Below are positions 18,436-31,830 of a stretch of DNA of 64,000 nucleotides, piece by piece. Below the pieces are notes generated by a model that was not told where the DNA came from, searched no databases, and saw only the letters and a list, made by a program, of their open reading frames with translations. The stretch's first letter is position 1. Every line of letters begins with the position of its first letter. Both the position numbers and the translations under genes were made by a program. Source of the stretch: a bacterium (GTDB lineage Bacteria > Desulfobacterota > Binatia > DP-6); assembly GCA_026129405.1 (NCBI GenBank), contig JAHCID010000001.1, forward strand, positions 1,519,237-1,583,236, in the 5' to 3' direction.

Positions 18436-18772
18436 GCCATCGCCGCGCCATCATGCGGTCGCGGTCGCGCGCGAAGCGCCGCCGCCAGTGCGGGAACCAG
18501 CGCGTCGGGATCACCGACGCGTCGTGCGTCCAGTGCTCGAACCGCGAGCGGCGCCGCTCGACGAGGGTGCGCAGGTGCTCCGGATGGTACGCGTCGCGCC
18601 GCGCGTGCAGCGTCAGATGGTGCGCACGCTCGACGACGTTGATGGTGTCGAGCTGGACGAAGCCGAGCCGCTCGACGAGCCGCTGCAGCCACGCGGGCGT
18701 CGTGCGGGCGGTGGGATCGTCGAGCAGGCCCTGCGCGCCGAGGAGCAGGCGGCGCGCTACTGCACCTTCCAC
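18436..18772 (-). pseudogene. truncated YcaQ-type winged-helix DNA glycosylase (N-terminal fragment)
   Basis: From a GTG at 18772, overlapping the sulfatase 3' end, the minus strand encodes ARRLLLGAQGLLD, then LVERLGFVQLDTINVV, ERAHHLTLHARRD and RFEHWTHDASVIP. This matches the N-terminus of YcaQ/DUF1006 (HTH_42) proteins, which process interstrand DNA crosslinks. After RRRFARDRDRMM the sequence loses similarity and runs into low-quality Arg/Ser-rich frame, so about three quarters of the usual near-400-residue protein is missing. Confidence 0.6.
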
Positions 18773-21051
18773 GCCCGCCTGGCCTCGGCCTCGCGATCGA
18801 CGACCGGCGCGCCCGAGACGTCGATCGTCACCTCGTGCAGCAGGCCGGTGAAGCGGAACGGCGCCGCGTAGCGCTCGCTCACCGGCGTACCGTCGTCGTA
18901 GCCGCAGCACAGGCCTTCGCCGTGGAGCGCGAAGCGGAACGGGGCCGTCTTCCTCATGTCGGCGGTGCCGGCGGCGGCGCCGTCGACGAGCAGCGTCGCC
19001 TGCATGCCGAGACCGCGCGTCGGCACGACGTCGACGCTGACCAGGTGTCGGCCCGGCGCGAGCGGCTGGCTCGACACCGTCGTCTCCGTCACGCCGGCGA
19101 AGTTGTAGGTGTAGTGCGCGCGTCCGTCCTGCAGGTAGAGCGCGAAGCCGCCGAAGCGGCCGCCCTGGGCGAGCAGCACGCCCTCGGCGCCGGCGGGCGG
19201 CAGCTCGACGCGCGCGACGATCGTGTGCGGGCGCAGCTTCAGCGACGGCGCCAGCTCCTCGGGCAGCGCCGCCGCGCCCGGCCGCAGCACGAGGCGATCG
19301 CTCGGCGGCACGACGGGCGGGCGGCCCTGGCCGAGCGCGCGCATCGACTGGAGGGGCAGGGCGCCGTAGCGGTTCGCCTCGCGGAACCAGAGATCCTGGA
19401 GCGCCTTCAGCTTCTCCGGGTGCTCCGCGGCGAGGTCGCGGCACTCGGACGGGTCCTCGGCGACGTGGTACAGCTCCCAGCGGTCCTCGTCGGGATGGCG
19501 GAACGGATCGTCGCCCGGCTCGTAGGGGAAGAAGGCGTGGAACGTCACCGCCTTCCAACCCTCGTGGTAGAGCGCGCGGCAGGCGAACTGCTCATAGTAC
19601 TGCGTCGTGCGGTGCTCGGGCGCGTTCGCGTCGGCGAGCGACGGCAGCAGGCTGCGGCCCGCCACCGGCTCCTGCGCGACGCCGTGCAGCGTCTCGGGCA
19701 TGGCGACGCCGGCGGCGTCGAGGATCGTCGCACCGACGTCGACTGCGTGCACGTACTGATGGCGCACGGCGCCCGGGTCGGGGATCTTCGGCCAGCGCAC
19801 GATGAGCGGATCGCCGATGCCGCCCTCGTGCGTCTCGCGCTTCCAGCGCCGGAAGGGCGTGTTGCCGGCGAACGCCCACCCCCACGGGTAGTGACCGTAG
19901 GTCGCAGGTCCGCCGAGCTCGCCCAGCAGCTCCATGGTGCGCGCGGTGTCGTGCGGCAGGCCGTTGAAGATGAAGTTCTCGTTGAACGTGCCGTGCGGCC
20001 CGCCCTCGGCGCTGGCGCCGTTGTCGGAGAGCAGCACGACGAGGGTGTTGGCGAGGTCGCCGCTGGCTTCGAGGCCGCCCAGCAGGCGGCCGACGTGATG
20101 GTCGGTGTGCGAGAGGAAGCCCGCGAACACCTCCATCATGCGCGCGTACGCCCGCCGCTCCTCGGCGGAGAGCGCCGCCCAGTCCTGCACCCACGACGGC
20201 CGTGGCGACAGCGTCGTCCCGGGCGGGATGATCCCCATCGCGAGCTGGCGTTCGTGGACGCGGGCGCGCCACGCGTCCCAGCCGTCGTCGAAGGCGCCGC
20301 GGTAGCGGTCGATCCACGCGCGCGGCGCCTGGTGCGGGGCGTGCATCGCGCCGAGCGCGAGGTAGGTGAAGAAGGGCTTCGTCGGGTCGGCGGCGCGGAG
20401 GTCGTTCACCATGCCGAGGGTGCGATCGATCAGATCCTCGGTGAGGTGGTAGCCGTCGGGGGGGACGAAGTGGATCGGCGTGTTGTCGACCACGAGGTCG
20501 GGGAAGAACTGGTTCGTCTCGCCGCCGAGGAAGCCGTAGAAGCGCTCGAAGCCCTGGCCGAGCGGCCAGCGCTCGCGCGACGCCGCGGCGTGCGTCTCGT
20601 CGGCCGGGGCGAGGTGCCACTTGCCGACCGCCATCGTCGCCCAGCCGTGCTGGCGCAGCACCTCGGAGACGAAGCCGCACGAGCGCGGGATGCGGCCGTT
20701 GAAGCCGGGAAAGCCCATCGCCATGTCGGCGATGCCGCCCATCGCGCAGGTGTGGTGGTTGCGGCCGGTGAGCAGGCAGGCGCGCGTCGGCGAGCACATC
20801 GCCGTGGTGTGGAAGCTGCGATAGCGGACGCCGGCGGCGGCGAGGGCGTCGAAGCTCGGCGTCGCGATGTCCGAGCCGTAGCACCCGAGCTGCGCGAAAC
20901 CGACGTCGTCGAGCACCACGACGAGGACGTTCGGGGCGCCGGCGGGGGCGCGGCGCGCGACCGGCCACGCGGGCTCGGAGTCGGCGAGCGTCAGACCCAC
21001 GCGGCCGGGGAAGGCGTCGTCGTCGTGATAGGTGCGGGGAGCGTCGGACAT
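18757..21051 (-). CDS. type I arylsulfatase (formylglycine-dependent)
   Basis: A 764-residue protein from the ATG at 21051 (an ATG three codons earlier at 21060 is also possible). LDDVG (residues 48-52) supplies metal-binding Asp residues. MCSPTRACLLTGR carries the CxPxR motif whose Cys86 is converted to formylglycine. VGKWHL and LSDNGASAEGG are further active-site blocks. The length and long C-terminal region match large AtsA/AtsD-like arylsulfatases. No signal peptide is evident, so it may be cytoplasmic or exported otherwise. It is divergent from an AraC regulator. The nearby FGE-fold protein lacks cysteines, so maturation needs another enzyme. Confidence 0.9.
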   Translation of the reverse strand: MSDAPRTYHDDDAFPGRVGLTLADSEPAWPVARRAPAGAPNVLVVVLDDVGFAQLGCYGSDIATPSFDALAAAGVRYRSFHTTAMCSPTRACLLTGRNHHTCAMGGIADMAMGFPGFNGRIPRSCGFVSEVLRQHGWATMAVGKWHLAPADETHAAASRERWPLGQGFERFYGFLGGETNQFFPDLVVDNTPIHFVPPDGYHLTEDLIDRTLGMVNDLRAADPTKPFFTYLALGAMHAPHQAPRAWIDRYRGAFDDGWDAWRARVHERQLAMGIIPPGTTLSPRPSWVQDWAALSAEERRAYARMMEVFAGFLSHTDHHVGRLLGGLEASGDLANTLVVLLSDNGASAEGGPHGTFNENFIFNGLPHDTARTMELLGELGGPATYGHYPWGWAFAGNTPFRRWKRETHEGGIGDPLIVRWPKIPDPGAVRHQYVHAVDVGATILDAAGVAMPETLHGVAQEPVAGRSLLPSLADANAPEHRTTQYYEQFACRALYHEGWKAVTFHAFFPYEPGDDPFRHPDEDRWELYHVAEDPSECRDLAAEHPEKLKALQDLWFREANRYGALPLQSMRALGQGRPPVVPPSDRLVLRPGAAALPEELAPSLKLRPHTIVARVELPPAGAEGVLLAQGGRFGGFALYLQDGRAHYTYNFAGVTETTVSSQPLAPGRHLVSVDVVPTRGLGMQATLLVDGAAAGTADMRKTAPFRFALHGEGLCCGYDDGTPVSERYAAPFRFTGLLHEVTIDVSGAPVVDREAEARRAWKVQ

Positions 21052-21060
21052 GGGCGGCAT

Positions 21061-21535
21061 GGTGGCCCAGGCCCTCCGTCCCGTCCAGGGATCGGCAGGT
21101 CGTGCGCCCGCGGCGGGCGGCCGCGCGCCGCGCCGCTGCTCCCGCTCGCGCGCCGGTGCCGGCGATGCGGCTCGCGCGCGTGCGCGTGGGCGCACCGGCT
21201 TCCGAGATCGGGGACGCCATCGCCCGTGCCATTGCCATCGGCGAGAACCGCGAAGCGCAAAGCCGATCCAGACGAGCGCAAGATCGTTCAAGCCGCGACG
21301 GCGCCGGTCGTGTATGCGGACGCTACCGTCGGTCATGGTCGTGCTCCGCTGCCTCGCGTTTTCACCGCGCCCGTTCGCGCGCATCGTGTCGCGCGACGCC
21401 GTGCACGCCGCGACGACGGCGTGCGCGCGGCGCCCACGATCTTGCGGACGGCGTCGCGATGTGATCGGGGCGACGCCGGGACACGACGACGGTCGTGTGG
21501 CATGTACGTTGCTCGGCTCCCGTCCGGAGAGACCC
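21061..21535 (+). promoter_or_regulatory. divergent intergenic region between sulfatase and AraC regulator
   Basis: About 475 bases separate the two divergent starts. No coding frame is convincing here. The stretch must hold promoters for both the sulfatase and the AraC-cytochrome operon, and a GGAGAG ribosome site lies just before the AraC ATG. I could not pick out an operator or -35/-10 pair with confidence. Confidence 0.4.
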
Positions 21536-22381
21536 ATGCTAGGGCGAGCGCAGGAGAGCCAGGACGAGTCGGGGCATCTCGATGCCGGGATCGCGATCGC
21601 GCGGACGACGCGCGCGTCGTCCGCGGGGTGGTCCGACGCGCATCTCGTCTTGGTGAACACCGGAGCGGCGCTGTCCCTCTGGGAGCGCGACGGCCGGCGC
21701 TGGCGATCGCGTCGGCTGGCGCGCGGCGAGGTCAGCATTCTTCCGGCCCCCCGGAGCGCGGTGCGGTGGCAGGGGGCGCAGGGCCTCGTCGCCATCACGG
21801 CGACGCCGGCGGCGTTGCGGCGCCTGGCGGTCGACGCCGGACGCGCGGGCGGCCTCGCACCGGTGCGTCGCACGCGCGACCCCATCCTGCTCGGGCTCGC
21901 GCGCGTGTTCCTTCTCGGGGAGGAGGAGTCGGGCGACGACGGCGGCTACGGCGCCGCGCTCGGGCGGGCGATGGCCCTCCATCTCGTGCGCCGGTACGGC
22001 GCCGCGGCCGCGACGCCGCGCGCCGACCTCGACCCGGTGATCCGACGGGCGTTGGACTACGTCGAGGCCAACCTGTCGCGGTCGCTGCGGCTGGCCGACC
22101 TGGCGCGCGTCGCGGTCCTCTCCCCGTACCACTTCGCCCGGCGCTTCAAGGCTGCCCTCGGCGTGACGCCGCACGAATGGGTGATGCAGCGGCGCGTCGC
22201 GCGCGCGGCGCATCTGCTCGAGGGCACGCCCGGGCCGTCGCTGGCGCACGTCGCCGTGCTGGTCGGCTTCGCGGATCAGAGCCACTTCACGCGGCAGTTC
22301 CGTCGCCACGTCGGCACCACGCCGCGCCGTTTCCTCGCCGCCCGCGTCGCCCGGGCTCGGGACGCCGAGGCCACGGCGTGA
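21536..22381 (+). CDS. AraC-family transcriptional regulator
   Basis: A 281-residue protein with GGAGAG four bases before the ATG. Residues 1-165 form a divergent, cupin-like ligand or sensing domain with no recognisable motif. Residues 180-281 hold the AraC double helix-turn-helix: SLRLADLARVAVLSPYHFAR, FKAALGVTPHEWV, then LAHVAVLVGFADQSHFTRQF and HVGTTPRRFL. Its stop codon overlaps the GTG of the tetraheme cytochrome gene by 4 bases. It is therefore translated together with the electron-transfer operon and probably regulates it, the divergent sulfatase gene, or both. The signal is unknown. Confidence 0.88.
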   Translation: MLGRAQESQDESGHLDAGIAIARTTRASSAGWSDAHLVLVNTGAALSLWERDGRRWRSRRLARGEVSILPAPRSAVRWQGAQGLVAITATPAALRRLAVDAGRAGGLAPVRRTRDPILLGLARVFLLGEEESGDDGGYGAALGRAMALHLVRRYGAAAATPRADLDPVIRRALDYVEANLSRSLRLADLARVAVLSPYHFARRFKAALGVTPHEWVMQRRVARAAHLLEGTPGPSLAHVAVLVGFADQSHFTRQFRRHVGTTPRRFLAARVARARDAEATA

Positions 22382-23025
22382 CGCCGCCGTCGGGGCCGCT
22401 GTTCGCCTCGCCGCCCGTCGAGCCGGCGGTGGCGTGGGCGCAGATCCTGCCGCTCGCCTTCGCGCTGCCGGCGGCGGCGATCCTCTTCTGGGGCCTCGTG
22501 CGCGGGCGCCTGCCGCCGGCGACCGCGCTCGCGGGCGTCGTCCTGCTGCCCGCCGCCGCCTACGGGCTCGGTGCGCTCATGCTCCTCGAAGGCTCGAAGG
22601 ACGTCCGCTTCTGCGGCTCGTGCCACGTGATGACGCCGATCGTCGCGAGCCTGTCCGACGCCGACAACGGCTCGCTCGCGGCGATCCACTACACCCGCGG
22701 CCTCGTTCCCACCGACCAGGCCTGCTACGTCTGCCACAGCGGCTACGGCATCTGGGGCACGTTCGACGCGAAGCGCGCCGGCGTCATGCACATGCTTCGC
22801 ACCGTGACCGGCCGCTACACGCTGCCGATCTCGCTGCACGCGCCGTTCGACATCGACTCGTGCCTCGGCTGCCATGCCGGCGCGGCCAGCTTCCGCGGCG
22901 TCGAGGCGCACCAGGATCCGGACCTGCAGAAGGCGCTGCTCGACGGCAGCATGTCCTGCACCGGTGCCTGCCATCCGGGGGCGCACCCGGCCGAGGCCCT
23001 CACGGGCGGAGGGCCGGTGTCGTGA
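22378..23025 (+). CDS. NapC/NirT-type membrane-anchored tetraheme cytochrome c
   Basis: A 215-residue protein starting at a GTG overlapping the regulator stop. Two N-terminal hydrophobic helices (residues about 20-40 and 50-70) precede four heme sites: CGSCH (79), CYVCH (116), CLGCH (162) and a non-canonical CTGACH (194-199), a CX3CH site. FCGSCHVM followed by a Met resembles the quinol-linked heme I of NrfH/NapC proteins. Such proteins oxidise menaquinol and pass electrons to periplasmic cytochromes, so this is the likely inner-membrane entry point of the downstream conduit. The fourth site may need special maturation. Confidence 0.85.
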   Translation: MTPPSGPLFASPPVEPAVAWAQILPLAFALPAAAILFWGLVRGRLPPATALAGVVLLPAAAYGLGALMLLEGSKDVRFCGSCHVMTPIVASLSDADNGSLAAIHYTRGLVPTDQACYVCHSGYGIWGTFDAKRAGVMHMLRTVTGRYTLPISLHAPFDIDSCLGCHAGAASFRGVEAHQDPDLQKALLDGSMSCTGACHPGAHPAEALTGGGPVS

Positions 23026-23204
23026 TCCGCCTCGTCTGCATCCTCACGCTCGTCGCGCTCGGCGCGCTCGTCCTCCTCGTGCTGCGCGAGGACGGCGGCA
23101 GCGCCATCGTGTTCTCGTTCGTCGGCTGTCCCGCGCTCGCCGCGGCGATGGGGCTCTACGCGCTCCATCGCCTGCGCAGCGGCGCGCCTCCACCCCTGCG
23201 CTGA
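23022..23204 (+). CDS. small two-helix membrane protein
   Basis: A 60-residue protein starting at a GTG that overlaps the tetraheme stop by 4 bases. Two hydrophobic stretches (LVCILTLVALGALVLLVL and VFSFVGCPALAAAMGLYAL) are separated by a short charged loop, with a basic Pro-rich tail. There are no heme or metal motifs. Its coupling to the cytochrome genes suggests an accessory or assembly subunit of the membrane module. No family is recognised. Confidence 0.6.
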   Translation: MIRLVCILTLVALGALVLLVLREDGGSAIVFSFVGCPALAAAMGLYALHRLRSGAPPPLR

Positions 23205-23222
23205 TCGGAAAGGAGTCCTCGC

Positions 23223-23534
23223 ATGCGTCGTTCCATCCTGCTTCCTCTGGCGTTCGTCGTCGCGACCGCCGCCGCGGCCGTCGCCGCCGACGGTGCGGCC
23301 GTCTACAAGCAGCATTGCGCCAGCTGCCACGGCGAGACCGGCAAGGCCGACACGCCGGCGGGCAAGGCGCTGAAGGCGCCGGCGCTCGCCGGCGACGCCA
23401 CCGTCGCCGGCATGAGCGACGCGGACCTGCAGGCGAAGATCGAGGGCAACGCGAAGCACCAATCCTTCGTCAAGAAGCTGTCGGCCGACGACGTGAGCGC
23501 GGTCGCCACATACGTGAAGGGCCTCGCCCAGTAG
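23223..23534 (+). CDS. small monoheme cytochrome c (periplasmic)
   Basis: A 103-residue protein with a strong ribosome site (GGAAAGGAG) and a signal peptide (residues 1-22). A class I cytochrome c fold with CASCH at 32-36 follows. The C-terminal helix KLSADDVSAVATYVKGL is typical of small c5/c6-like carriers. The usual MPxF distal-ligand segment is not present; KHQSF (His79) sits where the sixth ligand would be expected, so a His or Met64 ligand is possible. It probably shuttles electrons across the periplasm between the tetraheme protein and the multiheme cytochromes. Confidence 0.88.
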   Translation: MRRSILLPLAFVVATAAAAVAADGAAVYKQHCASCHGETGKADTPAGKALKAPALAGDATVAGMSDADLQAKIEGNAKHQSFVKKLSADDVSAVATYVKGLAQ

Positions 23535-23542
23535 GACGCGTC

Positions 23543-26263
23543 ATGGGGCAACGCACCTGGTCGTCGCTGGTGTTGGGCGCGGGGCTGGTCGTCGCCGCCG
23601 CGTCCTCGTGGGCCGCCACGCTCGTCCCGGGCGGCGGCGCCGCGCGGCAGGACTGTCTCGTCCAGCTCGCGGCGGACGGGGTCGGCTTCCCGGCCGGCAA
23701 GACGCCGAAGGGCGTCACCTGCGCCGACGGCGACTCGTGCGACCTCGACGGGCAGCGCAACGGCGTCTGCCTGCTGTCGGTGGCGCTCTGTCTCAACCAG
23801 GCGACGCGCTCCTGCCAACCCGGCCAGGTGACGCGCGTGACCCTCAAGACGAAGAAGAAGTCGCCGATCGACGTGTCGGGCCTCCAGGCCGCCGTCGACG
23901 CGGTGCTGCCGGCCGCCGGACCGGCGTGTGCGGCGGCGATCGCCCTGCCGGTGCCGCTCGGCGGTCCGAACAAGCGCGGCATCGTCCCGCCGACCGAGGT
24001 GCTCGTGAAGGCGGTCGCGAAGGCCGGCGGCCGCACCGATCGCAGCAAGTTCAAGCTGACCTGCGTGCCGACGACCGTCGCCGGCGTCACGGTCACGACC
24101 ACCAGCACGACGGTCGTCGCGCCGACCACCACCACCACGACCACCATCGGCCCGATTCCGCCCGGCCCGCCGGGCGCCGGGCTCACGGCGGCCATCACCG
24201 CAGCCGCGGTCGCCGGCGCCGGCACCGTGACGGTCACCTTCCGACTCGGCGACGGCGCGGGCGTGCCGGTGACGCCCGTGCTCGGCGCCACCACGAACCC
24301 CGCCCAGGCGCGCGTGCGCTTCACGATCGCCCGCCTCGACGTCGTGAACCAGACGGTCGAGGGCTTCACCACCGACTTCACGCGCTACCGCAGCTACGTC
24401 GTGCCGTCGCCCGGCCAGCCGGGCTACGACGCCGGCGGCACGCTGGCGCTCGTCGACGCGGCGACGGGCGTCTACACCTACACCTTCGCGACGACGCTGC
24501 CCGCGGGCTTCCCGGCCACGGCGACGCACACCGTCGGCGCGCAGGTCGAGCGCAGCTATGCCGGCGCCACGCTGGTGGCGAACCCGCTCCTCGACTTCGT
24601 GCCGTCCGGCGCCCCGGTCACGGTGGTGCGCCAGGTGACGACGACCGCGCAGTGCAACGGCTGTCACGACCCGCTCGCGCTACACGGCGGGGCGCGCCGC
24701 GAGGTCGGGCTCTGCCAGCTCTGCCACACCGACCAGGGCTTCGACCCGGAGAGCGGCAACTCCATCGAGCTGCAGCAGATGGTCCACCGCATCCACCAGG
24801 GGAAGGACCTGCCCAGCATCGTCGGCGGCCCGGTCGGCAGCGTCTACGAGATCATCGGCTTCCAGAACCAGCCGATCGTGTTCGCCGAGAAGGTCCTGGC
24901 CTGCACCGGCGGCGCGCTCGCCGGCGTGCCGTGCGCGAGCGACGCGGATTGCCCGGACGGCACCTGTACGGGCGCGACCGCCACCGGCGTCGGCTTCCCG
25001 CAGGACACGCGCAACTGCGCCGTCTGCCACGCCGACGGCGCGACCCACGAGACCTACGCGACGCGCCCGTCGACCAGCGCCTGCACCGGCTGCCACGACG
25101 ACGTGAACCCGGGCGAGACCACGACCGAGGCCGGGCCGCCCGGCACGAACCACGTCGCCGGCGCGCAGCCCGACACGCTCTGCCGCCTGTGCCACACGCC
25201 CAGCGGGACGGAGTTCGACATCTCGGTCACCGGCGCGCACACGATTCCGGCGCGCTCGGCGACGCTCGCCGGTCTCGCCGGCGAGCTGCTGTCGGCGAGC
25301 GGCGCCGCCGGCGGTGCGGTGATCGTGACGTTCCGGCTGCGCAACGGTGCGGGCACGCCGCTCACGACGCTCACCGGGCTGAATCGCGTCGCGCTGGCGC
25401 TCAGCGGACCGACCACCGACTTCGGCGGCGCGACGCCGCACGTGACCACGCCCACGATCTTCGGCGGCGGCGCCTCGGGCACGCTCACCGGGCCGGACGG
25501 CAGCGGCGTCTTCACCTACACGACGACGGTCGGCAACGGCGTTCCCGCGGGCGCGACCGGCAGCTGGCGCGTCGGCCTCGAGGCGCGGCGTTCGGTCACC
25601 GTGCACGGCCAGAGCGTCAACGAGGCGATGCAGAACGTCGTCCTCGACTTCCCGATCGACGGATCGCCGCTCGTACCCCGGCGCACGGTCGTCGCACAGG
25701 AGAAGTGCGGCTCGTGCCACGGCGTCTTCTCGGTCGACTTCAGCATCCACGGCGGGCTGCGCAACCAGACCGACTACTGCGTCGTGTGCCACAACCCGAA
25801 CATGACCGACTTCGCGCGCCGCGTGACCGTCTCGGGCGCCGATCCCCGCAACCAGCCGATCGATCTGAAGCACATGCTCCACAAGATCCACACCGGCGAC
25901 GATCTCACGCAGATCCCCTACGTGATCTACGGCTTCGGCCCCGCCGCGATCGACTTCGCCGAGGTCCGCTTCCCGGGCAATCGCGCCGACTGCGAGCAGT
26001 GCCACGTCTCGGGGTCGTACCTGCTGCCGCTGCCCGCCGGGGTGCTGCCGACGGTGATCTCGGAGATCGCCGGCAGCAGCGAGAACGTGGTCGGCGTGAC
26101 GCCGCCCATCCAGGACGCGTGTCTGTCCTGCCACGACACCGGCGACGCGGCCCTGCACGCACAGCTGAACACGACGGTGGACGGCCGCGAGGCCTGCGGC
26201 GCCTGTCACGGCGAGGGTGCGGCGTTCGCCGTGTCGGTGGTGCACGCGGCGGCGTCGCCCTGA
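23543..26263 (+). CDS. OmcA/MtrC-type decaheme cytochrome c with added N-terminal module
   Basis: A 906-residue exported protein with ten CxxCH sites in two groups of five: residues 371-551 (CNGCH, CQLCH, CAVCH, CTGCH, CRLCH) and 722-889 (CGSCH, CVVCH, CEQCH, CLSCH, CGACH). A beta domain without cysteines lies between (552-720) and another beta domain precedes (about 205-365). This is the I-II-III-IV layout of Shewanella MtrC/OmcA, the terminal reductases on the cell surface. Two differences stand out: no lipobox, and residues 25-190 form an extra Cys-rich module (CADGDSCDLDGQRNGVC, CLNQATRSC) joined by a Thr-rich linker. The CX8C disulfide of MtrC domain III is absent. Confidence 0.9.
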   Translation: MGQRTWSSLVLGAGLVVAAASSWAATLVPGGGAARQDCLVQLAADGVGFPAGKTPKGVTCADGDSCDLDGQRNGVCLLSVALCLNQATRSCQPGQVTRVTLKTKKKSPIDVSGLQAAVDAVLPAAGPACAAAIALPVPLGGPNKRGIVPPTEVLVKAVAKAGGRTDRSKFKLTCVPTTVAGVTVTTTSTTVVAPTTTTTTTIGPIPPGPPGAGLTAAITAAAVAGAGTVTVTFRLGDGAGVPVTPVLGATTNPAQARVRFTIARLDVVNQTVEGFTTDFTRYRSYVVPSPGQPGYDAGGTLALVDAATGVYTYTFATTLPAGFPATATHTVGAQVERSYAGATLVANPLLDFVPSGAPVTVVRQVTTTAQCNGCHDPLALHGGARREVGLCQLCHTDQGFDPESGNSIELQQMVHRIHQGKDLPSIVGGPVGSVYEIIGFQNQPIVFAEKVLACTGGALAGVPCASDADCPDGTCTGATATGVGFPQDTRNCAVCHADGATHETYATRPSTSACTGCHDDVNPGETTTEAGPPGTNHVAGAQPDTLCRLCHTPSGTEFDISVTGAHTIPARSATLAGLAGELLSASGAAGGAVIVTFRLRNGAGTPLTTLTGLNRVALALSGPTTDFGGATPHVTTPTIFGGGASGTLTGPDGSGVFTYTTTVGNGVPAGATGSWRVGLEARRSVTVHGQSVNEAMQNVVLDFPIDGSPLVPRRTVVAQEKCGSCHGVFSVDFSIHGGLRNQTDYCVVCHNPNMTDFARRVTVSGADPRNQPIDLKHMLHKIHTGDDLTQIPYVIYGFGPAAIDFAEVRFPGNRADCEQCHVSGSYLLPLPAGVLPTVISEIAGSSENVVGVTPPIQDACLSCHDTGDAALHAQLNTTVDGREACGACHGEGAAFAVSVVHAAASP

Positions 26264-26269
26264 CGGACG

Positions 26270-27331
26270 ATGCGTGGGCGTCGGGGGAGCGGACCGGGGC
26301 CGGCGGCGGCGGTGCTGGGGGTGCTGCTCGCCGCCGTCGCGTCGGCGCAGGCGGTGCCGAGCGCTGGCGTGTGCGGCGTCTGCCATCGGGACGAGGCGCT
26401 GGCGTACACGTTTCCGGACGGGCACGCGGCGGCGCTCGACTGCATCGCCTGCCATGCCGACCGGCGGCCGGACCGCGTCGGCCGCCGGCATCGCACGATC
26501 CCGACCTGCGACACCTGCCACGCCGGCGTGGTGCAGGGGCATCCGGAGAAGGCGGCGGCGCGCACCGGCCGCCGGCAGACGCGCAACTGCCTCGGCTGCC
26601 ACGACCCGCACGGCGGCAGCAACCTCGACCTGATCGCCCCCCTGGTGCGCTCGCGCGGCAAGCTGCGCGCCGTGACGTTCACGAGCACGGCCGGCCTCGC
26701 GCCGGACAGCTTCGCCGACCCGACCCGTCCGGGGCACGGGCTGTGCGAGACCTGCCACACGAAGACCGAGTTCTACACTCGCAAGGGGCAGGGGGCGCCG
26801 CACTTCACCGAGGACTGCACGCTCTGCCACGACCACGCCGCCGCCTTCGCGCCGGTGGCGACGCCGCAGAACTGCGCCCTCTGCCACGGCACCGAGGCGG
26901 CGAAGCTGGCGATGCCGAGCGGCCACAGCGGCCGCGCCTGCGAGAGCTGCCACGCGACCGTGAGCCCGACGCCCGGCCCGGGGCATCAGAGCGCCGAGGC
27001 CTGCCGGACCTGCCATCCCGCCAACCAGACGCACGCGCCCGGCGGCGCCGGCATGCCCTGCACGCAGTGCCACGACCCGCACGGCTCGACCAACATCGAC
27101 CTCGTCCTGCAGACGATCCAGACGCCGAGCGGCGGCCTGCGCCCGATCGTCTTCGACAACCTCGACGGCCGCGCCGACGGCAGCTTCGCGAGCGCCTCGG
27201 CGCCGGGCACCGGCGTCTGCGAGATCTGCCACACGACGACGCAGTTCTATCGCGCCGACGGTACGGGGGCGCCGCACTTCACGTTCTCCTGCCTGCCGTG
27301 CCACCGGCACGCCGCGGGGTTCGAGCCGTGA
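26270..27331 (+). CDS. dodecaheme cytochrome c
   Basis: A 353-residue exported protein (signal peptide about residues 1-28, first heme at Cys35) with twelve CxxCH sites: CGVCH, CIACH, CDTCH, CLGCH, CETCH, CTLCH, CALCH, CESCH, CRTCH, CTQCH, CEICH and CLPCH. Two duplicated blocks are visible: CLGCHDPHGGSNLDL and CTQCHDPHGSTNIDL, each followed by a FxxCETCHTKTEFY/CEICHTTTQFY segment. This suggests internal duplication. About one heme per 29 residues indicates a heme wire. It lies 6 bases after the decaheme gene and overlaps the next gene by 4 bases. It may act in the periplasm or outside. Confidence 0.88.
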   Translation: MRGRRGSGPGPAAAVLGVLLAAVASAQAVPSAGVCGVCHRDEALAYTFPDGHAAALDCIACHADRRPDRVGRRHRTIPTCDTCHAGVVQGHPEKAAARTGRRQTRNCLGCHDPHGGSNLDLIAPLVRSRGKLRAVTFTSTAGLAPDSFADPTRPGHGLCETCHTKTEFYTRKGQGAPHFTEDCTLCHDHAAAFAPVATPQNCALCHGTEAAKLAMPSGHSGRACESCHATVSPTPGPGHQSAEACRTCHPANQTHAPGGAGMPCTQCHDPHGSTNIDLVLQTIQTPSGGLRPIVFDNLDGRADGSFASASAPGTGVCEICHTTTQFYRADGTGAPHFTFSCLPCHRHAAGFEP

Positions 27332-28269
27332 GGCGCGCGCTCCTCGTCCTCGTCGCCGCGCTCGCCGCGTGCGGCCCCGGCACGGGGCCGGGCATGACGC
27401 CGATGAAGGCCGAGCCGGTGCCGCCGCCCGACCCCGCGGCGTTCGCCGGCCCCGAGGTCTGCGCCGCCTGCCATCCCGACTGGAACGAGAGCTACCTCGC
27501 GACGCCGCACGCAGGCGTCCTCGACGATCCGGCGCGGCCGCCGGAGCAGCGCGCCTGCGAGGCGTGCCACGGCCCCGGCCAGGCGCACGTCGACGGCGGG
27601 GGCGGCGAGGCGGGCAACCTGCAGACGTTCGCCGAGACGGAGCCGGCGCGTGAGCGCGCGGCGCCGTGCCTGCGCTGCCACGCCGCCGATCCCGCCCTCT
27701 ACCACTTCGACGGCAGCGCCCACGCCGCCGCCGAGGTCGCCTGCACCGACTGCCACGACCCGCACGGCGGCATCGGCCGCCTGATGCTGAAGGCGACCGA
27801 TCCGATCCCCGAGCCGCTGCGCGGGCCGAGCTTCCGCGCGCGCGAGGTGACGACGGCGCTCTGCCAGCACTGTCACCCCGCGGTGCGCTCGCAGTTCGCG
27901 CTGCCCGAGCACCACAAGGTGCCCGAGGGCGTGATGTCGTGCACCGACTGCCACCAGCCGCACGGCAGCACCGACCACGCGCTCCTGCGCGACACCGGCC
28001 AGACGACCTGCGTGCGCTGCCACGGCGAGGTCGAGGGACCGTTCGTCTTCGAGCACATCGGCCTGACGCTCGAGGGCTGCGGGGGCTGTCACGAGCCGCA
28101 CGGCAGCGTGAACCGCCATCTGCTGCGCTTCCAGCAGGTCGCGCAGCTCTGCTACCAATGCCATGCCGGCACGCCGGCGAGCCACAGGCAGCCGAGCTAT
28201 CGCGACTGCACGAGCTGCCACGTCGCCATCCACGGATCCAACAGCGATCCGCGCTTCCTGGAGCCGTGA
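27328..28269 (+). CDS. DmsE/MtrA-type decaheme c-type cytochrome lipoprotein
   Basis: A 313-residue protein from a GTG overlapping the previous stop. The N-terminus RRALLVLVAALAAC ends in a lipobox with Cys15. Ten CxxCH sites follow: CAACH (45), CEACH, CLRCH, CTDCH, CQHCH, CTDCH, CVRCH, CGGCH, CYQCH and CTSCH. Spacing and the recurrent CHDPHG/CHQPHG/CHEPHG motifs match the MtrA/DmsE/PioA family. MtrA threads inside the MtrB barrel to carry electrons across the outer membrane, and the very next gene encodes such a barrel. Lipidation is a departure from Shewanella MtrA. Confidence 0.9.
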   Translation: MRRALLVLVAALAACGPGTGPGMTPMKAEPVPPPDPAAFAGPEVCAACHPDWNESYLATPHAGVLDDPARPPEQRACEACHGPGQAHVDGGGGEAGNLQTFAETEPARERAAPCLRCHAADPALYHFDGSAHAAAEVACTDCHDPHGGIGRLMLKATDPIPEPLRGPSFRAREVTTALCQHCHPAVRSQFALPEHHKVPEGVMSCTDCHQPHGSTDHALLRDTGQTTCVRCHGEVEGPFVFEHIGLTLEGCGGCHEPHGSVNRHLLRFQQVAQLCYQCHAGTPASHRQPSYRDCTSCHVAIHGSNSDPRFLEP

Positions 28270-30236
28270 TGCGAAGGCGGGTCGTGGCGGCGCTCGCGGT
28301 GCTCGTGCTGGTCGCACGCAGCGGCCGCGCCGAGGAGCCGCCGCCCGAGCCGCGGCTGCCGTACCGGCTGACGGGCGCGGTCTCGGCCGGCTACCGTCTG
28401 GTCGACGTCGACGGCTCGGGCAACCGCTACGACGAGGACTACAACCTGCACTCGGGCGGGCGCCTGTTCCTCTTCTCGCTCGACGGCGAGGCCCACGATC
28501 CCGCCAAGGTCCCCGTCGACCGCTTCCACCTCGAGGTCGACACGCCCGGCGACGAGCCAGTGTCGCGCTTCGTGCTCACCGCCGAGGAGGGCAAGCTCTG
28601 GGACCTGCGCGTCGACTTCACGCGCTCGCAGTACTTCTACGACCAGCCGCAGCTCTTCCGCGCCGGCGTGCCGGGCAACGTGCGCCTCGCCGACCTCCAC
28701 GCCTTCGACGTCACGCGCACGAACGGCATCGCGCAGCTGCGTGTCCGCCCCGAGGGCTGGCCGACGCTGATCGCGGGCTACCGCCTCTACGAGCGCGACG
28801 GCGGCGGCACGTCGACGGTGACGGTGCCGGGCGGCGGCCTGTTCGTCGTGCGTGCACCGCAGCGCCAGGTGACGCACGTCGGCAGCCTCGGCGCCGAGTT
28901 CACGACGCTCGGCACGGCGTTCTTCCTCGAGCAGGAGTATCGCTACGTCGCCCGCAGCTACGGCCTGCACGGGCCGCGCGACACCGACGGCGTCGACCCG
29001 GCCGAGGGATTCACGCTGGCGAGCTGGCAGAGCACCGCCGACGACCACATCCAGATCCCGATCACGCGCGTGCGGGTACGCCGGCCGGTCGGCGACCGCC
29101 TCGAGCTGACCGGCGGCTACGTCTACGCCCACGCCGGGCTCACCTACGACCGCACGCGCTACCGCGACGGCACCAGCGCCATTCCGGACGACGACGGGCC
29201 GTCGACGCGCATCGACGCGAGCAGCGCGTCGCTCGACACGCAGCTCCTCGATCTCGGCGCCAGCTACCGCCTGGCCCGCATGGCGACGCTGCGCCTGTCG
29301 TATCGCTACGACGACCGCGAGCAGGACGGCGACCTCGACGCGCTCCTCGATCCCGGTCGCCTGCGGACGGCGACGGATTACCACGTGCGCCTCCATCGCG
29401 TGACCTCCGACGTCGAGGTGCGTCCCGCGAAGTCGCTGGCGATGCGCGCCGGCGTGCAGTGGGCGCGCCGCGACGCCGCCTTCTCGATCGCCGACCAGAG
29501 CGTGTCGACCGACGTCCTCGGCGCGGTCGCCGAAGCGCGCTGGAAGCCGTGGCGCTTCCTCGACGGCTACCTGCGCTACGACCACGTCACGATCGACGAC
29601 CCGTGGACGATCCCCGGCGACGGGCAGGGCGCGCCGGCGGTGCCGTCGCGCCAGATCGCCTACACCTTCGACAACCGCGGCGCCGCCGGCCTGCGCGCGC
29701 GCCCGCGCGACTGGATGCAGCTGGCCTACGACTTCACCGCCGACAGCTTCGAGAACGCCGACTTCCGGGGCCGCGTGCAGCGCTTCGCGAACACGGTGTC
29801 GGTGAGCCTGACGCCGCTCCCGGGCCTCACGGCCTTCGCCGGCTACACGCGGCGCGACCTCGACCTCAGCAACCTCGTCTATCTCGCCCCGCGCTACCGC
29901 CCGCAGACGTCGCTCCAGCGCGGCAGCGAGGACGTCATCACGAGCACGCTCACCTACGACTTCACGCTCGCAGGCTACGGCTGGTCGACGGGCTGGAACG
30001 TCGTGTGGGTCGATTCGAAGGACACGCTGGCGCCGAGCTTCGAGCCCGGGCTGCCGGCGAACGAGCGCTTCGACGTGAGCCGCATCGACGCCGGCATGTT
30101 CCTCACCTTCCGGCATCCCATCGTCGAGCCCGGCATCGAGGTGCGGCACGTGACCTTCGCGGAGCCGTCGCGACCCCGCAACGACTACGAAGCCACCATC
30201 GTCACGTTCCGGCTGACGCGGCGGTTCGACTTCTGA
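28269..30236 (+). CDS. MtrB/PioB-type outer-membrane beta-barrel
   Basis: A 655-residue protein overlapping the decaheme gene by 1 base (TGATG). Signal peptide residues 1-21, then LTGAVSAGYRLVDVDGSGNRYDEDYNL, followed by alternating amphipathic strands throughout (for example TLRLSYRYDDRE, VEVRPAKSLAMRAGVQWARR). It ends TFRLTRRFDF with a C-terminal Phe, the barrel-assembly signal. Length and genomic pairing with an MtrA/DmsE-type decaheme point to the porin sheath of a porin-cytochrome complex. The CxxC near the N-terminus of Shewanella MtrB is absent. A GC hairpin follows the stop at once. Confidence 0.85.
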   Translation: MRRRVVAALAVLVLVARSGRAEEPPPEPRLPYRLTGAVSAGYRLVDVDGSGNRYDEDYNLHSGGRLFLFSLDGEAHDPAKVPVDRFHLEVDTPGDEPVSRFVLTAEEGKLWDLRVDFTRSQYFYDQPQLFRAGVPGNVRLADLHAFDVTRTNGIAQLRVRPEGWPTLIAGYRLYERDGGGTSTVTVPGGGLFVVRAPQRQVTHVGSLGAEFTTLGTAFFLEQEYRYVARSYGLHGPRDTDGVDPAEGFTLASWQSTADDHIQIPITRVRVRRPVGDRLELTGGYVYAHAGLTYDRTRYRDGTSAIPDDDGPSTRIDASSASLDTQLLDLGASYRLARMATLRLSYRYDDREQDGDLDALLDPGRLRTATDYHVRLHRVTSDVEVRPAKSLAMRAGVQWARRDAAFSIADQSVSTDVLGAVAEARWKPWRFLDGYLRYDHVTIDDPWTIPGDGQGAPAVPSRQIAYTFDNRGAAGLRARPRDWMQLAYDFTADSFENADFRGRVQRFANTVSVSLTPLPGLTAFAGYTRRDLDLSNLVYLAPRYRPQTSLQRGSEDVITSTLTYDFTLAGYGWSTGWNVVWVDSKDTLAPSFEPGLPANERFDVSRIDAGMFLTFRHPIVEPGIEVRHVTFAEPSRPRNDYEATIVTFRLTRRFDF

Positions 30237-30260: not shown

Positions 30261-30366
30261 CGGGCCCGCGCCGGCACGGGCGCCGAATCGACGGCTGGCG
30301 GCCGTCTCGCGACCGCAGGTGCAATTCGCGGCTGACCCCGAGGCTGCGGGCGGGTACCCTGTCGTC

Positions 30367-31830
30367 GTGCCGCAGATCTCGCAGACGCCGGGCTCGTCGC
30401 CCCGGCGCCCTGGCCGCTCCCACCTCGCAGTCGCCGTGCTTTCGTTGCTGCTCGCCGCCGGGCCAGCGGTCGCCGCCGCGGAGCGCGCGCGCCCGTCCGT
30501 GCTGCTCGTCGTGCTCGACACGGTCCGCGCCGACGCGGTCTCCGCGTACGGCCACGTCGACGGCACCACGCCGGTCCTCGACGAGCTCGCCCGCACGGGC
30601 ATCCGCTACCAGCGCGCCTACGCCGCCGGCAGCTGGACGGTGCCGTCGCACGCGGCGATGTTCACGGGCCTGCGGCCCAGCGTGACGGGAACGCTGCGGG
30701 CGGGGACGTCGTTCGCCGGCCGCCATCGCACGCTCGCCACTGCGGTGATGCTCGCGGGCTACGACACCGCCGGCTTCTCCGAGAACCCGTGGCTGAGCGA
30801 GGAGCTCGGCTTCCACGAGGGCTTCGCGCGCTTCGAGAATCTCGCGGCGCCGCAGCTCTGGCGCGACGGCGGCCCGCCCCCGCGCGACCTGGCGGATCGG
30901 GTCGGGACGTGGCTCAGCCGTCGCGATCCGACGCGCCCATTCTTCGTCTTCGTCAACATCATGGACGCGCACGACCCGTATCCCGTGAGCACCGACAATC
31001 CGTTCCTGGCGCCCTGGGTCTCGCTCGACGACGCCCAGCGCGCGGTCGAGGAGCACGGCGGGCTGCGCTGCGCCACCGACGGGCGCGAGGACGACATCGC
31101 CCTGCTGCGCCGGCTCTACCTGCACGGCGTGCAGCTCGCCGACCAGAAGCTGGGGCGCGTGCTCGACGTCGTGCGGCGCCAGCGTCCGGACGATGCCCTC
31201 CGCGTGATCGTCCTGTCCGACCACGGCGAGCACTTCGGCGAGCGCCGGCGCATCGTGCACGACGTCGGGCTGTCCGAGGCGCTGATCCACGTGCCGCTCG
31301 TGATCCACGGTGTGCCCGGTCCCCCGGCGGTGATCGACCAGCCGGTGCCCACCGCGGACGTGTTCGGCACCGTCGTCGCATGGACCGGCGCGTGGGCGAG
31401 CGGGCCCGGGCGTCCGCTGCCGACGCGCCCGGACGCTCCGGGTCCGGCGAGCCCGGTCGTGGCGGAGTACGAGGATCCGCTCTCGGACGTGCTGCGCCTC
31501 GAGCCGCCGGCCACCATCCTCCACGAGACGCTGGTGCGCGAGCAGCGCCTGCTCTGCCGTCCCGAGGATCGTGCGGACGGCAGCCGGCGCGCCGTCATCG
31601 CCTTCCCGTACAAGCTGATCGCCTTCGAGGGGCAGCCGCCGGAGCTGTACGACCTCGGCGCCGATCCGACCGAGCGCCACGACCTCGCCGCGACGCATCC
31701 GGAGGTCGTGCGGCGACTCTTCGGGGCGCTGCCGCCCTTCGGCACCCCGGGCCTGCCGCGCACGTCCACGCCGCCCGTCGACGCCCGTCGCAGCGAGCAG
31801 CTGCGCGCGCTCGGCTACGTCGTGCCCTGA
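30367..31830 (+). CDS. exported sulfatase-superfamily hydrolase/transferase without formylglycine motif
   Basis: 487 residues from the GTG at 30367 (a GTG at 30319 is an alternative), with a signal peptide ending near AVAAAE. VVLDTVRADAVSAYGH provides the metal Asp. SWTVPSHAAMFTGLRP sits where CxPxR occurs in true sulfatases, so the nucleophile would be Thr or Ser and no formylglycine is formed. FVNIMDAHDPY and VLSDHGEHFGE complete the alkaline-phosphatase-superfamily site. Such variants include phosphoethanolamine transferases and phosphohydrolases. Substrate is unknown. It is convergent with the PPOx-like gene, 7 bases apart. Confidence 0.8.
   Translation: MPQISQTPGSSPRRPGRSHLAVAVLSLLLAAGPAVAAAERARPSVLLVVLDTVRADAVSAYGHVDGTTPVLDELARTGIRYQRAYAAGSWTVPSHAAMFTGLRPSVTGTLRAGTSFAGRHRTLATAVMLAGYDTAGFSENPWLSEELGFHEGFARFENLAAPQLWRDGGPPPRDLADRVGTWLSRRDPTRPFFVFVNIMDAHDPYPVSTDNPFLAPWVSLDDAQRAVEEHGGLRCATDGREDDIALLRRLYLHGVQLADQKLGRVLDVVRRQRPDDALRVIVLSDHGEHFGERRRIVHDVGLSEALIHVPLVIHGVPGPPAVIDQPVPTADVFGTVVAWTGAWASGPGRPLPTRPDAPGPASPVVAEYEDPLSDVLRLEPPATILHETLVREQRLLCRPEDRADGSRRAVIAFPYKLIAFEGQPPELYDLGADPTERHDLAATHPEVVRRLFGALPPFGTPGLPRTSTPPVDARRSEQLRALGYVVP

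Follow-up and report, generated by a model that had tools for sequence, protein, structure and literature searches.

A seven-gene operon (g1 to g7) from a bacterium of the class Binatia probably encodes an electron conduit, in which MtrCAB-type cytochromes and a predicted outer-membrane barrel connect the quinone pool with the cell exterior, likely passing electrons outward to an extracellular acceptor. The operon lies in the window analysed here, a stretch of 64,000 nucleotides (contig JAHCID010000001.1 of assembly GCA_026129405.1, positions 1,519,237 to 1,583,236). The assignment is carried by the membership of g4 and g6 in the MtrC and MtrA families, by the MtrB-like predicted fold of g7, and by the finding of related MtrC proteins beside two different modules.

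The tight packing of the seven genes reported in the initial annotation is evident from their open reading frames (ORFs; Table 1). Overlaps of 4 bases occur at g1/g2 and g5/g6 and of 1 base at g6/g7, in line with the earlier description of several overlaps of 4 bases or less; the remaining gaps are 18, 8, and 6 bases (g2/g3, g3/g4, and g4/g5). A count of motifs reproduces the 37 heme sites claimed (4+1+10+12+10). One of these is atypical: g1 has three CXXCH motifs and one CX3CH (CTGACH), while g3 has one site, g4 ten, g5 12, and g6 ten; g2 and g7 have none. When the 64-kb window is translated in six frames, 36 of its 37 CXXCH motifs fall in the operon region, and each of 20 codon-order shuffles of that region contains only 0 to 2.

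Table 1. Coordinates in the window of the operon genes, an added domain of g4, and neighboring genes.
Feature	Position	Strand	Description
g1	22378..23025	+	tetraheme cytochrome, two hydrophobic stretches (likely transmembrane); likely quinol dehydrogenase
g2	23022..23204	+	60-residue membrane protein, two hydrophobic stretches; possible g1 anchor
g3	23223..23534	+	monoheme cytochrome c, signal-like N-terminus; likely periplasmic carrier
g4	23543..26263	+	OmcA/MtrC-family decaheme cytochrome; likely extracellular
g5	26270..27331	+	12-heme protein built of two hexaheme modules in tandem; predicted wire segment in the periplasm
g6	27328..28269	+	DmsE/MtrA-family decaheme cytochrome with lipobox; predicted wire inside barrel
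g7	28269..30236	+	MtrB-like predicted outer-membrane beta-barrel, 655 residues, no Cys, C-terminal Phe
g4 N-terminal domain	23615..24110	+	extra Cys-containing domain, about 165 residues, followed by Thr-rich linker
AraC-family transcription regulator	21032..22381	+	longest ORF, true start uncertain; candidate operon regulator
Sulfatase-family gene	18757..21060	-	
Sulfatase-family gene	30319..31830	+	

The decaheme protein g4 scores 390.7 bits against the OmcA/MtrC model TIGR03507 (cut-off 209.3), and its sequence matches in the Protein Data Bank (PDB) include MtrF (3pmq, E 4.9e-26), OmcA, and UndA. Nearly the whole length of g6 is covered by the DmsE/MtrA model TIGR03508 (207.3 bits, cut-off 192.2), and g6 matches chain A of 6r2q at E 1e-29. 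The name "Cystathionine beta-synthase" attached to that chain is, in our reading, a mislabel, since fold tools list 6r2q as the Mtr complex. The lipidation proposed for the MtrA-like subunit finds support in a lipobox, LAAC, identified with a simple rule applied upstream of the first heme; by eye, this rule missed a lipobox in the MtrC of locus L173 and in the hexaheme protein of L166. Among other MtrA proteins, that of genome G003, which also holds the conduit set of the window, has a lipobox by the rule, that of G387 has VYAC by eye, and those of loci L010 and L011 have none.

An MtrB-fold outer-membrane barrel whose gene adjoins mtrA is a mark of MtrCAB clusters, and g7, by predicted fold, stands in this arrangement with g6. 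Wherever a full-length MtrB-like barrel is present (five loci: the window, L008, L134, L010, and L011), a g6 homolog is its neighbor. The C-terminal Phe noted earlier is present. The name MtrB-like rests on fold, because the sequence of g7 scores below the curated cut-offs of PF11854 and TIGR03509. Thus the MtrA/MtrB/MtrC homology expected from hidden Markov models (HMMs) holds for g4 and g6, and for g7 at the level of fold. Four of six g7 relatives do pass PF11854 (P0104, P0111, L010, and L134, but not L011 or L008), and none passes TIGR03509.

At the inner-membrane end, g1 was initially called NapC-type. In proteins of the NapC/NirT/NrfH group a single N-terminal helix enters the membrane, and in NrfH a Met lies near heme 1 (CXXCHxM). 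Like them, g1 has four heme sites and a CXXCHxM motif at heme 1, whose Met (M85) is invariant in all eight aligned rows. It differs in having two hydrophobic stretches by hydropathy (residues 23–41 and 51–69) instead of one helix, and in family scores below cut-off, so that the label is apt for the heme count and otherwise loose. All seven other loci with a called g1 have a g2-like ORF next to it, and g2 is possibly an anchor of g1. The g3 protein is an ordinary cytochrome c, above the cut-offs of PF13442 (43.7 bits) and PF00034 (37.4 bits). The outline given initially is therefore right, with g7 placed by fold: an MtrA/MtrB/MtrC-type set across the outer membrane, joined by a monoheme cytochrome and a tetraheme of the inner membrane.

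An electron path can be proposed in which every step is drawn from family roles (PMC7198977, PMC8805035, each consulted in part). Quinol would be oxidized by g1, together with g2, and electrons would pass to g3 and/or to g5, which may act as a periplasmic bridge. From g3 or g5 they would reach g6, seated inside the g7 barrel, and finally g4 on the cell surface. The localization of the proteins, their assembly into a complex, their heme loading, the bridging by g5, and the outward direction are predictions. The genome encodes cytochrome c assembly proteins (three PF01578 matches). The futalosine-pathway menaquinone marker PF02621 was not found, in a search that did not include the Men pathway.

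Several observations weigh against this reading. The g7 barrel reaches only 19.4 bits against PF11854 (cut-off 23) and 19.9 against TIGR03509 (cut-off 240), and neither its family profile nor the single sequence finds any PDB sequence, the profile at E values up to 10. No lipobox was found in g4 by the rule, a departure from the mtr pattern given in the consulted part of PMC6148476. The best NCBIfam match of g1, NrfH TIGR03153, gives 24 bits against a cut-off of 134.2, and NapC PF03264 gives 16.9 bits against 24.1. The barrel is also rare: of 148 genomes in the class search, only four match, and in just two, the window's own genome (G000; 5.6 Mb in 15 contigs) and G003, is it full-length and close. 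G387 keeps the MtrA, MtrB, g1, and g2 genes and has no MtrC within the 14 kb examined. Finally, three COX1 genes in the window's own genome give an aerobic option, so that outward anaerobic respiration is not forced.

This last point bears on direction, which is not readable from sequence; PMC8805035, in the part consulted, says the same of net direction in most MtrCAB organisms. The same conduit might run inward, as in Pio- or Mto-like systems, and carry electrons to the quinone pool, or to oxidases such as those the COX1 genes imply, from donors outside the cell (Fe(II), humics, or partner cells). According to the same source the MtrAB homologs PioAB work in this way and MtoAB are proposed to. 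We regard an inward conduit as unlikely, since an OmcA/MtrC-type cytochrome is present and MtrCAB is typically tied to reductive transfer (PMC8805035).

A second alternative concerns the division of labor. The 12-heme g5, rather than g6, might occupy the g7 barrel, or g5 might be a second extracellular cytochrome, with g6 serving as a periplasmic lipoprotein relay. The extent of the g6 match to the DmsE/MtrA model and the constant pairing of g6 homologs with the barrel argue otherwise and make this arrangement quite improbable. Moreover, by HMM no 12-heme gene is called in L134, L010, or L011, the last of which holds an ORF with 11 hemes and a 28-bit match, and the homologs of g5 with 14 to 22 hemes seem long for a barrel of this kind. 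An extracellular respiratory system of the DMSO type (dmsEFABGH-like), suggested by the NCBIfam name of the g6 family (DmsE), is highly improbable, because g6 matches the MtrA chain of 6r2q as well and no molybdopterin reductase occurs among the seven flanking ORFs, to which the search was confined.

The g5 protein arose by duplication of a hexaheme module. Its halves are 41% identical (E 4.6e-43) and align with 127 bits, against at most 49.7 in 100 shuffles that preserved the heme motifs. General multiheme models match above cut-off (PF14522, 53.8 bits; PF22113, 35.4; PF09699, 28.8), and the DmsE model TIGR03508 gives 60.8 bits, below its cut-off of 192.2. A Foldseek search returned nothing at E <0.001, the best match being 6r2q_A at 0.039, and neither the g5 of the window nor that of G003 has a lipobox by the rule. 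A profile of the 12-heme alignment found 272 relatives in genome contigs, of which the best 80 were kept and some of the best loci examined in detail; in our reading, the lower-ranked matches are mostly generic CXXCH proteins. In L048 (7354–10462) a single hexaheme relative of g5 follows a GMC oxidoreductase and gluconate 2-dehydrogenase subunit 3, and L020, L021, L023, L024, and L026 look alike by eye. Sets of this type are likely dehydrogenases with a hexaheme acceptor.

Matches to g4 occur in 61 of the 148 class genomes, many through the N-terminal domain only. Besides the window and G003, 20 MtrC loci in which the match reaches the cytochrome part were compared; G035 and G054, outside these 20, also have matches that reach it. 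In 12 of the 20 (L165–L174, L182, and L183), here called type-II, a porin-like protein, a 7-heme protein, and a 2-heme protein stand in place of the MtrA-MtrB of the window. Neither module was found in seven others (L175–L181), two of which lie on contigs shorter than 9 kb, and L184 has MtrC without either.

All 12 type-II loci thus have a related MtrC; ten have a hexaheme-repeat protein and five a g1-like tetraheme, with weak 24–28-bit matches to g1 in three more. The hexaheme-type proteins contain 4, 6, 6, 6, 6, 8, 14, 20, 20, and 22 CXXCH motifs when counted in stop-to-stop frames. Lipoboxes are found by the rule in the MtrC of seven of the 12 loci (against neither of the two from the window and G003), in nine of the ten hexaheme proteins, and in the 7-heme protein of ten of the 12. 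The porin-like protein, 438–545 residues from stop to stop, has no Pfam match in any of ten rows (nine type-II loci and L022), and the best PDB match of its profile, at E 0.056, is chance in our reading. We take it to be a putative barrel, with no profile relation to g7 (probability 0.2% and 0.8%). L022, on a contig titled Nitrospirae bacterium, has the trio of porin, 7-heme, and 2-heme proteins as well, again together with a hexaheme protein.

Trees were built after duplicate loci per genome and short search loci had been left out. The MtrC tree, of 23 rows, pairs the window with G003 (100/99), and the sister group of this pair comprises ten type-II loci (100/99); L182 and L183 lie outside this clade. 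The g1 tree, which has 8 rows and long branches, instead joins the window to L169 and L173, both type-II (100/100), and separates it from G003; the g1 of the window is 63–66% identical to theirs and 43% identical to that of G003. Approximately unbiased (AU) tests reject the grouping of window with G003 at p 4e-5 for g1 and at p 8e-7 for g3; for MtrC they reject that of window with L169 and L173 (p 1.4e-4). These values are optimistic because the groups were named after the similarity had been seen. The conflict between g1/g3 and g4 may reflect transfer or exchange, or else ancient paralogy with loss; both fit.

Because related genes stand beside a different module in relatives, the wire is likely built from exchangeable parts, and modules may have been exchanged. 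Tentatively, Binatia may possess a plug-and-play chassis comprising a surface MtrC, a quinol-oxidizing g1/g2 pair, and a hexaheme ladder whose length varies largely in six-heme units. Two unrelated outer-membrane plugs would be swapped on it, one being MtrA-MtrB and the other a new porin accompanied by 7-heme and 2-heme lipoproteins, and the ladder would be a length-tuned, fixed periplasmic wire replacing diffusing shuttles. If so, a conduit can exchange its whole outer-membrane plug and keep its surface and inner-membrane ends, and multiheme wires of the periplasm lengthen through duplication of a six-heme unit. The choice between a shuttle and a fixed wire across the periplasm would become testable, and interchangeable parts for engineered conduits would be at hand.

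The remaining class matches to the barrel are a fragment in G005 and a distant homolog in G387. A phylum sample of 297 genomes yields three, G000 and two distant ones (G076 and G286), and a profile search of genome contigs with the barrel alignment confirmed no relative. The G005 fragment (L009, 9622–10245) covers residues 551–628, has no CXXCH gene called within 19 kb, and resembles the remnant of a conduit since lost. In G387 (L134) a 9-heme protein precedes MtrA-MtrB and the g1/g2 pair, and a monoheme gene lies on the opposite strand.

The operon shares with Shewanella MtrCAB (6R2Q; PMC7198977, consulted in part) ten-heme proteins of MtrA and MtrC type, an MtrB-like barrel by predicted fold, and the adjacency of mtrA and mtrB. 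It differs in a barrel sequence too divergent for the curated MtrB cut-offs, in a lipobox on MtrA rather than, by the rule, on MtrC, in the extra N-terminal domain of MtrC, and in the addition of g1, g2, g3, and the 12-heme protein. The Group 6 mtrCAB clusters, mostly from Halieaceae, likewise combine mtrCAB with a tetraheme of the inner membrane, a monoheme of the periplasm, and another multiheme cytochrome. They contain an octaheme protein and an MtrA-DOMON, and, in a comparison by description only, the consulted part of PMC8805035 describes no 12-heme protein made of duplicated hexahemes.

The Geobacter ExtABCD and ExtEFG systems can be likened by description, not homology: they too have periplasmic dodecahemes (ExtA and ExtG), an outer-membrane protein, and lipoprotein cytochromes (ExtC/ExtD), and the ext regions are said to depart from the mtr pattern (PMC6148476, in part). 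The initial suggestion that a 12-heme protein sets the operon apart from Geobacter clusters was accordingly rejected. Against the family of the Geobacter decaheme GSU2203 (NF041028), g6 scores 182 bits (cut-off 325), and g7 matches that of GSU2204 (NF041027) weakly, at 24 bits (cut-off 350). The proposal of a new conduit type is best restated: not wholly new, the operon is an MtrCAB variant with an accessory set partly common to a second kind of Binatia cluster.

In the parts of the literature consulted, MtrABC genes are noted in one Desulfobacterota_B metagenome-assembled genome, class not stated (PMC9671151), Desulfobacterota_B being the GTDB phylum in which Binatia have been placed (PMC11264602), and MtrCAB has been extended to Desulfobacterota (PMC12133095). 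The consulted parts of open-access full texts, a scope mostly exclusive of subscription papers and preprints, yielded no operon-level Binatia conduit, hexaheme duplication, or second module. Likely extracellular electron transfer in Binatia is here described at the operon level; the earlier literature found on it amounts to one survey line (PMC9671151).

The added domain of g4 occurs at 11 places in its own genome, g4 included (for example, L097–L105), and recurs in many Binatia genomes, often in secreted-looking proteins. It has a pattern like CxDGxxxCDxDGxxxGxC, and residues 1–199 of g4 have no Pfam match at E 0.01; possibly it is a surface or sorting domain. The MtrC relative of L165 (7955–10705) has instead an N-terminal EF-hand-like stretch (PF00036, E 1.3e-4, below cut-off), so that these cytochromes vary at their N-terminal ends.

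The AraC-type ORF upstream, which matches PF12833 (83.5 bits) and PF00165 (68.8 bits) above their cut-offs, overlaps g1 by 4 bases, and the operon may start one gene earlier, with this ORF. Its C-terminal part matches, among the fetched loci, only those of the window's own genome, so co-regulation is suggested by the overlap alone. A scan for promoters and terminators gave no signal above chance. Sulfatase-family genes lie on either side of the operon, the downstream one being the next gene on the same strand. The seven flanking ORFs tested encode the AraC regulator, these two sulfatases, a PNPOx-fold protein, a polyphosphate kinase, a sensor histidine kinase, and a luciferase-like protein. 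Outside the operon, a search of the genome with PF09699 found two places, each with a single multiheme protein and no called barrel beside it. These two proteins, in L132 (3646–5991, eight CXXCH) and L133 (3999–5909, seven CXXCH), have long C-terminal tails that look repeat-like by eye.

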